Part shown: positions 27,947-38,099 of the stretch, piece after piece
Layout: every line of letters starts with the position of its first letter
How positions within the stretch are numbered: the first letter of the stretch is position 1
Assembly (NCBI RefSeq): GCF_000021745.1
Contig: NC_011666.1
Location: forward strand, 186,001 to 250,000
Source: Methylocella silvestris BL2
GTDB taxonomy: Bacteria > Pseudomonadota > Alphaproteobacteria > Rhizobiales > Beijerinckiaceae
Length of the DNA stretch: 64,000 nucleotides
Direction of reading: 5' to 3'
The notes under the pieces: model-generated
Databases searched by the model: none
Seen by the model: only the letters and a program-made list of their open reading frames with translations
Told to the model about the DNA's origin: nothing
Program-made: the position numbers and the translations under genes

Positions 27947-28035
27947 GTTTAGAGCATGACGCCGAAAAGATGTAGACTTTTCGGACCACGCTCCAAACAG
28001 TTGGAATCGATCGCGTTTCATGAATCTGGACCGAG
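27947..28035 (+). repeat. Rhizobiales-type intergenic palindromic element
   Basis: An inner perfect stem, CCGAAAAG (27962-27969) and CTTTTCGG (27977-27984) with a 7-nt loop, sits inside an outer stem GTTTAGAGC (27947-27955) and GCTCCAAAC (27990-27998; one mismatch). A tail GGAATCGATCGCGTTTCATGA follows, which is shared with 3388-3414 (minus strand) and is related to the region near 60785-60800. The AGAGCATGA...CCGAAAAG pattern is characteristic of RIME-like mosaic elements in Rhizobiales, as I recall them. Confidence 0.7.
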
Positions 28036-36227: not shown

Positions 36228-38099
36228 ATGCACCGCTACCGTTCCCATACCTGCGGCGATCTGCGCGAAACCGACGCCTTGCAGCCGACCCGGCTTTCCG
36301 GCTGGTGCCACCGCATCCGCGACCATGGCGGCGTGCTGTTCATCGACCTTCGCGATCACTATGGAATCACGCAATGCGTCGTCGATCCTGATTCGGGCGC
36401 CTTTCCCCTCGCCGAGAAGCTGCGCTCCGAATGGGTCGTCCGGATTGACGGGCTCGTGCGCCAACGCCCGGCCGGCACCGAGAACATCGAGATGCCGACC
36501 GGCCTCATCGAAGTCTATGTGACGGAGATCGAAGTTTTGGGCGCGGCCGCCGAATTGCCGCTGCCGGTGTTTGGCGACCAGAATTATCCCGAAGACATGC
36601 GGCTGCGCTATCGCTTCCTCGATCTCAGGCGCGAAAAACTCCACAACAACATCATGCTGCGCGGACGGGTGATCGATTCGCTCCGCGCGCGCATGAAGGG
36701 GCAGGGGTTTTTCGAATTTCAAACGCCGATCCTGACAGCTTCGAGCCCCGAGGGCGCGCGCGATTTTCTCGTGCCCTCGCGTCTGCATCCGGGCAAATTC
36801 TACGCCCTGCCGCAGGCCCCGCAGCAATTCAAGCAGCTGCTCATGACGGCTGGCTTCGACCGCTATTTCCAGATTGCGCCCTGCTTCCGTGACGAGGATC
36901 TGCGCGCCGACCGCAGCCTCGAATTCTATCAGCTCGATATCGAGATGAGCTTCGTCACGCAGGAGGATATTTTCGCCACCGTCGAGCCGGTGCTGCGCGG
37001 CGTCTTCGAGGAGTTCGGCGAGGGTTTTGCGGTGACGCCGGAATTCCCGCGCATCCCTTACGCCGAGACGATGCTGAAATATGGCACGGACAAGCCGGAT
37101 CTGCGCAATCCGCTCGTCATCGTCGACGTGACGGAGGAGTTTTCGCGCGAGGACGTCAGCTTCAACGCCTTCAAGAACGTCATCAAGCAGGGCGGCGTCG
37201 TGCGCGCCATTCCGGCGCCGGGGGCCGGCGCGCAGCCGCGCTCCTTCTTCGACAAGCTGAATGATTGGGCGCGGGGCGAGGGCGCGGCCGGTCTCGGCTA
37301 TGTGATTTTCGAGGGCGACGCTGGAGCGCTCGTCGGCAAGGGTCCGATTGCGAAATTCCTTCCCGCCGACGTGCAGCAGGCGATCGCCGCCAAGGCCGGC
37401 CTGAAGTCCGGCGACGCCGTGTTCTTCGCCTGCGACCGGCCGGATCGGGCCGCCAAGCTCGCCGGCGCGGCGCGGCTTCGCATCGGCTCGGAGCTTAAAC
37501 TGTCGAAAACCGGCGTGTTCGAACTTTGCTGGATCGTCGATTTCCCGATGTATGAATGGAACGAGGACGAGAAGCGAATCGATTTCTCGCATAATCCGTT
37601 CTCGATGCCGAATTGCAACCTAGAGCAGTTTCTCGCTCTAGAGACCGGTGTCCGTGAAGAAATTGTTGGAATTGACCGAGGGGAGCGCAATCGCGATTTA
37701 AATGAGAGCAATGAACTTCGGAAGCGGATACTCGAAATAACCGCTTTTCAATATGACGTTGTCTGCAACGGCTTTGAGCTGTCGTCCGGCGCGATCCGAA
37801 ATCACCGTCCCGACATCATGCGCAAGGCCTTCGCGCTCGCCGGCTATGATGAAACAGTGCTGGAGCAGAAATTCGGCGGCATGTACCGCGCCTTCCACTA
37901 CGGCGCGCCGCCCCATGGCGGCATTGCGCCGGGCGTCGATCGCATCGTCATGCTGCTCGCGGGCGAGGAAAATCTGCGCGAGATCGTGGCTTTCCCGATG
38001 AATCAGCGCGGCGAGGATCTGTTGCTCGGCGCCCCCTCCAATGTGACGGCGAAGCAACTGCGCGAGCTCTCGATCAAGCTCAATTTGCCGGAGAAATAG
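36228..38099 (+). CDS. aspS: Aspartate-tRNA ligase with an atypical in-frame insertion
   Basis: Charges tRNA-Asp, possibly also tRNA-Asn. 623 residues, roughly 25-30 more than typical. Order: anticodon-binding OB fold (1-110), class II catalytic core with motif 2 ([16 protein letters not shown]), the bacterial GAD insertion (about 290-420) and motif 3 ([20 protein letters not shown]). Between HNPFSMP and [23 protein letters not shown] the family normally has about 15 residues; here about 43 occur (codons 463-506). This stretch, 37610-37745, is clearly less GC-rich and uses codons rare elsewhere in the gene (TTA, ATA, CTA, GGA). ATG 36228 is the natural start; the frame extends upstream without support. 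Confidence 0.97.
37610..37745 (+). repeat. Probable repeat-derived or imported segment inside aspS
   Basis: A 7-bp perfect inverted repeat, CTAGAGC (37620-37626) and GCTCTAG (37635-37641) with an 8-nt loop, stands at the left end, followed by ACCGGTGTCCGTGAAGAAA and a TTGTTGGAATTGACCGA segment. These resemble pieces of Rhizobiales intergenic repeats, from memory of the form CTAGAGCATTTTC...ACCGGTTCGCGTGAAGAAA, and the TTGGAATCGATCG tail at 28000. It is in frame and adds roughly 25-30 residues to AspRS. The exact borders are uncertain. Confidence 0.45.

Follow-up and report, generated by a model that had tools for sequence, protein, structure and literature searches.

Probable turnover and expansion of a native aspartyl-tRNA synthetase loop in Methylocella silvestris BL2

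We report that the aspartyl-tRNA synthetase (AspRS) gene of Methylocella silvestris BL2 carries a loop of 44 codons where relatives mostly have 22, and that this block of DNA has been turned over while its flanks were spared. Our preferred reading, with a probability of about 0.68, is that an indel-prone and probably exposed loop was turned over and expanded, in a way ordinary in kind but extreme in degree, without a mobile element. The DNA analysed (the window) is a stretch of 64,000 nucleotides, positions 186,001 to 250,000 of contig NC_011666.1. The original prediction, made from the letters of this stretch, was that a palindromic intergenic element had invaded the gene in frame. This was mostly not borne out, as both element-like pieces correspond in codon register to native loop sequence and no match to the second module of the repeat was found. 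The features discussed below are as follows (window coordinates).

36228-38099, + strand: aspS, aspartyl-tRNA synthetase, 623 aa; open reading frame with intact frame, length and start checked.
37611-37742, + strand: whole AspRS loop, 44 codons, residues 462-505; placed by codon alignment, turned over relative to the sister genome G008.
37611-37673, + strand: native-type loop, 21 codons, holding both element-like pieces; assigned by profile and DNA shuffles.
37620-37626 and 37635-37641, + strand: inverted repeat CTAGAGC/GCTCTAG, 7-bp arms with 8 bases between; read as diverged LEQFLAL codons from an ungapped DNA alignment to the loop of locus L016.
37644-37662, + strand: ACCGGTGTCCGTGAAGAAA, closer to the repeat core than any other piece; interpreted as native codons TGVREE (codons 12-21 resemble locus L257).
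37666-37679: TTGGAATTGACCGA; read from the sequence of the block.
37674-37721, + strand: extra codons without recognised relative, 16 residues, 15 of which misfit the loop profile.
37722-37742, + strand: KRILEIT, second native-like loop end adjoining AFQYD; assigned by peptide and DNA shuffles.

The genome (G000) is one contig of 4,305,430 bases, 99.98% complete, in which this gene is the sole aspS match, and the protein carries the Pfam domains tRNA-synt_2 (class II core), OB fold and GAD. Loop lengths were counted in codons from HNPFSMP (or SMA) to the A of AFQYD or its variants; here the 44 codons are bounded by HNPFSMP and AFQYD and the frame is unbroken throughout. The predicted in-frame insert of low GC content is real, with a GC of 0.47; coding stretches of equal length in the window have 0.65 ± 0.05, and 1 of 1776 is as low. 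Rare codons had been claimed as well, and codon usage is indeed poor (3.9th percentile) but not extreme. The loops of some relatives likewise have a GC of 0.47-0.53, so low GC alone is no proof of foreign origin. The perfect 7-bp inverted repeat and the two repeat-like motifs, ACCGGTGTCCGTGAAGAAA and TTGGAATTGACCGA, were also found where they had been described. The window has 15 CTAG sites where approximately 211 are expected from base composition, and two of the 15 lie inside the block. CTAG is thus strongly avoided in the window, and several of the sites fall at the ends of open reading frames.

All 80 named relatives were readable across the loop, with 16 codons in 24, 22 in 52, 28 in one (L286, a metagenome genome, +6) and 32 in three (L221, L232 and L250, all Methylobacterium, +10); none has a 44-codon loop. 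The earlier comparison of about 43 codons with a family norm of about 15 was therefore right about the long block but not about the yardstick, since relatives mostly have 22, and the excess is 22 codons rather than about 28. Within the genus, aspS was matched in 14 of 15 genomes including G000 (G012 gave no match), and all 13 other genomes with a match have 22 codons. The family search gave an aspS match in 190 of 199 genomes; among the matches listed, which do not amount to a full length survey, G000 and G198 alone are continuous across the loop, and the G198 loop has 36 codons (+14). The proposed alignment with the AspRS of close relatives thus set the borders at 37611-37742, and the same insert is not a general feature of the relatives: among the genomes searched it is specific to G000. 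The insert lies, as suggested, in a loop of an essential enzyme, and this loop varies in length, from 16 to 36 codons elsewhere. Like the other alphaproteobacterial loop variants, which are 6, 10 or 14 codons longer, it is in frame between HNPFSMP and AFQYD, its extra codons fall within these borders and the ends of the loop show homology to the usual form. It differs from them in being 22 codons longer than the usual 22 and in the divergence of the remaining loop sequence from that of the sister genome.

This divergence is confined to the block. Outside the loop, G000 and its sister G008 have a DNA identity of 0.941; within it the value is 0.508 (63 aligned bases), which means that the block has been turned over. 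Loop pairs involving G000 (n = 14; 12 genus and two family genomes) have a mean identity of 0.503, compared with a mean of 0.748 and a minimum of 0.587 for the remaining 91 pairs. When changes were polarised with three outgroups, 19 were assigned to G000 in the block, one in the preceding 63 bases and two in the following 60.

Much of the turned-over block matches native AspRS loops. With one long insertion allowed, it scores 17.4 against a profile of 27 loops, a score reached by 0 of 20000 residue shuffles and by 1 of 20000 stretches of genomic DNA (aspS was among the loci sampled); anchored at the left, 0 of 200000 shuffles score as high, and with free offset the fraction is 0.00008 of 50000. 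Against a profile of 67 distinct loops, 0 of 20000 shuffles are as good for codons 1-11, 29 of 20000 for codons 12-21, and 70 of 20000 peptide shuffles for the last seven codons, KRILEIT, while the 15 residues before KRILEIT fit at chance level (3780 of 20000). The DNA compared in codon register with 75 loops agrees: the identity is 0.73 between codons 1-11 and L016 and 0.63 between codons 12-21 and L257, neither value being reached in 3000 shuffles, although codons 12-21 are weaker at the residue level (40 of 3000). For the KRILEIT codons the DNA identity is 0.76, with 0 of 3000 shuffles as good. In particular, ACCTAGAGCAGTTTCTCGCTCTAGA aligns without gaps to ACCGCGAGGAGTTCCTCGCTCTCGA of L016, so that the 7-bp inverted repeat corresponds to diverged LEQFLAL codons, and TGVREE, from ACCGGTGTCCGTGAAGAAA, stands where L257 has AGDRER. 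The palindrome lies within the first 21 (native) codons, as does the ACCGGT...GAAGAAA piece, and on the basis of these codon-register alignments we read the palindrome and the repeat-like motif as native codons.

The extra codons can be placed in two ways. If VREEIVGI is the native loop end, the extra 22 codons occupy approximately 37674-37739; if KRILEIT is the native end, they lie between FLALE and KRILEIT, a placement favoured by the loop profile by 4 bits (17.4 vs 13.3). A native-looking loop end appears twice, as VREEIVGID and later as LRKRILEIT, and the total of 44 codons is exactly 2 x 22, which hints at a loop duplication. The two halves of the block, however, have a DNA identity of 0.33, which 1781 of 20000 shuffles equal and which is therefore within chance, so duplication remains a hint only, and the first part of the extra codons resembles nothing found. 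On our reading the block holds a complete native-type loop (21 codons), and after it come about 22 extra codons, the last of which form a second, copy-like loop end. The likeliest event would be duplication of the loop or of its end followed by fast divergence, or else the swapping in of a divergent AspRS loop by short recombination, in which case the replacement would have brought the longer form with it.

An AlphaFold2 model built from 30 aligned sequences (mean pLDDT 77.9) has helices at residues 465-469 and 476-479, a pLDDT below 50 for residues 477-488, and a helix at 491-502 that leads into a strand from 505. The low-confidence linker followed by a helix was counted in support of loop turnover. 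Foldseek returned AspRS as the first 22 of the best 50 matches, with an rmsd to known AspRS near 13 Å, the model being poor in the loop. The model suggests that the loop is exposed and flexible and that its helix is lengthened, and the extra residues would probably be tolerated as a flexible linker plus a longer helix. Since the enzyme is encoded by a single intact essential gene, AspRS with the long loop is presumably functional, and the expansion may well have no functional effect.

Some observations fit less well with turnover of the native loop. The two halves are unlike in DNA and the 15 middle codons fit nothing; the low GC and the two CTAG sites are odd for plain native evolution; and the likeness to the repeat exceeds what the peptide predicts, as the fraction of back-translations that do as well is 0.0004 with genome codons and 0.0032 with uniform codons (5000 each).

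The alternative that survives best, though we regard it as unlikely, is that a divergent aspS loop was imported by recombination, the donor being an unsampled relative whose loop was already long. The tract would measure about 130 bases and have its ends in the conserved flanks. This import had been named in the original prediction, and it fits the loop homology better than an element does. The confinement of the changes to the loop and a GC that is low for the window are consistent with it, as is the closer agreement of codons 1-11 with a non-genus loop (0.73) than with any of 13 genus loops (0.64); this last contrast is weak, however, because several genus loops likewise have a non-genus nearest neighbour. 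Against it, no donor was found. No related long loop was confirmed in 397 genomes of the order, where the weak protein matches checked (five of eight) were non-AspRS, or in 385 genomes of the class, where all four weak matches were non-AspRS, and a scan of genome contigs gave 316 pattern matches and no confirmed loop relative, with the qualification that records near G000 may be excluded from it. Plasmids gave no tblastn match to the 43-residue loop, and blastn with 37560-37800 gave partial matches to them, two of which are annotated as aspS, plus short pieces.

Insertion of a whole or partial Rhizobiales intergenic palindromic element into the loop, in frame and with subsequent decay, is considerably less probable still. 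The repeat itself, to which the original prediction had pointed, exists and is abundant: the pattern AGAGCANTTTCN{12,30}GTGAAGAAA has 211 matches (the sum of the listed counts) in 29 of 199 family genomes, compared to 0 for the reversed control. At loci L160, L172, L181, L183 and others it is a two-module intergenic repeat, CTAGAGCATTTTC...GAAAATGCG, followed by a second hairpin ending in GCTCTAG, and its inner hairpin shows seemingly compensatory changes, as judged by eye. A covariance model, R1, was built from 20 copies, two of them from G000. At E ≤ 1 it gave 16 matches in G000, 18 in G008, 149 in G005, 130 in G007, one in G003 and at least 150 in G013 (at most 150 candidates were scored per genome), so that the number of model matches within this one genus ranges from one to at least 150; in G000, 10 of the 19 copies listed fall below E = 0.01. 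Scans of five loci with Rfam gave no match at the block or at the repeat.

In G005 a strong copy of the repeat (84.7 bits; L010 1431-1492; G005:C1:378221-378282) starts approximately 8 bases after the aspS match stops, and in G122 (L141, about 1448-1545) one lies directly upstream of an rnd-like frame, rnd also being a neighbour of aspS in the window. At 27950-28026 the window matches the local two-module form weakly (7.0 bits, E = 0.2); this match looks decayed, starts with TAGAGCATG and has an AAAAG...CTTTT hairpin. Among 85 repeat elements in 81 loci, 19 are in stop-free stretches, which are common in GC-rich DNA; in the 10 inspected by eye a known protein was found in one only, ribonuclease D, with the element before the likely start.

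The block resembles this repeat in part. It is the sole R1 match in the window (cmsearch 20.7 bits, E = 0.0017; nhmmer E = 0.0018), but in the genome-wide search it ranks 12th of the 19 listed with E = 0.112. The loosened pattern matches only the block in G000, yet it had been loosened to fit the block, and both pattern and region were chosen after the block was seen. When 12 real copies were aligned to the block, four outscored every one of 1000 mononucleotide shuffles. The match of the first 55 bases to the first module is equalled by none of 400 dinucleotide shuffles and by a fraction of 0.0025 among 400 genomic stretches, and the rare CTAG is present twice in the block. For the whole block against the best of 18 copies, in contrast, dinucleotide shuffles give p = 0.025, and the later part (37666-37742) does not resemble the second module (p = 0.245): the hairpin ending in GCTCTAG, present in about nine of the copies aligned from G000 and G008, is missing. 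The reverse complement of this later part does better against the same second modules than the forward strand (p = 0.04), which we take as noise. Compared with two composite elements, 37644-37715 alone gives p = 0.010 and the left 30 bases p = 0.004. With a profile built from the local two-module copies, the block is not among the matches even at E = 10.

The DNA likeness to R1 is thus partial, at 37619-37678, and the block differs from the repeat in having another centre, in being two bases shorter and in that the similar part is native AspRS loop. Neither similar piece is left unexplained by the host gene; both are homologous to native loops in register, to which the block scores 43 compared to 45 for the repeat, and if the first 21 codons are the native loop both lie outside the extra codons. 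It is this placement of both element-like pieces in native loop sequence that led us to downgrade the element. Rickettsia palindromic elements (RPEs) are described in passages of PMC10969869 as multi-copy families, approximately 150 bp in length, whose peptide is conserved, and the likeness to them lies in the notion that a housekeeping gene gained sequence in frame. Unlike RPEs, which have several in-frame copies in unrelated genes, the block has no second in-frame copy that could be found, and its palindrome consists of native codons. It is unlikely that a decayed intergenic palindromic repeat supplied part of the new 22-residue loop, as an RPE-like coding use in a free-living alphaproteobacterium.

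Searches for further copies or relatives of the block agree with its isolation. Blastn against the own genome up to E = 10 gave, besides the block itself, only 8 matches of 14-22 bases; similar non-coding copies, on which the original prediction depended, are thus absent at the level of blastn but present when the repeat family is searched as a profile. CTAGAGCAGTTTC is unique in the genome, CTAGAGCANTTTC with one mismatch has 18 matches vs 60 for the reversed control, and ACCGGTNNNCGTGAAGAAA with three mismatches has 27 vs 26. The insert matched nothing in the PDB up to E = 10 and nothing in Pfam. A 10-residue peptide at 37659-37688 resembles a Cas12a RuvC motif; with no PDB match, it was attributed to chance. 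A structured RNA at the block was also rejected (z = -1.33; 24 of 200 shuffles equally stable). Among the literature matches listed no paper describes the insert, and CTAGAGC was not found among the papers listed. An assembly or sequencing artefact, suggested by a unique block in a single genome, is highly improbable given that the block is in frame over 132 bases with native-like ends in a one-contig genome of the completeness given above.

Turnover and expansion of the native loop therefore remains our reading, and it carries a caution: a palindrome and a repeat-like motif in an insert can be diverged native codons, which only a comparison in codon register reveals. If an element had nevertheless been involved, palindromic repeats could be said to turn into protein outside Rickettsia as well. 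The AspRS loop has changed length several times and is doubled here, and it is possibly a site where an essential enzyme tolerates new sequence.
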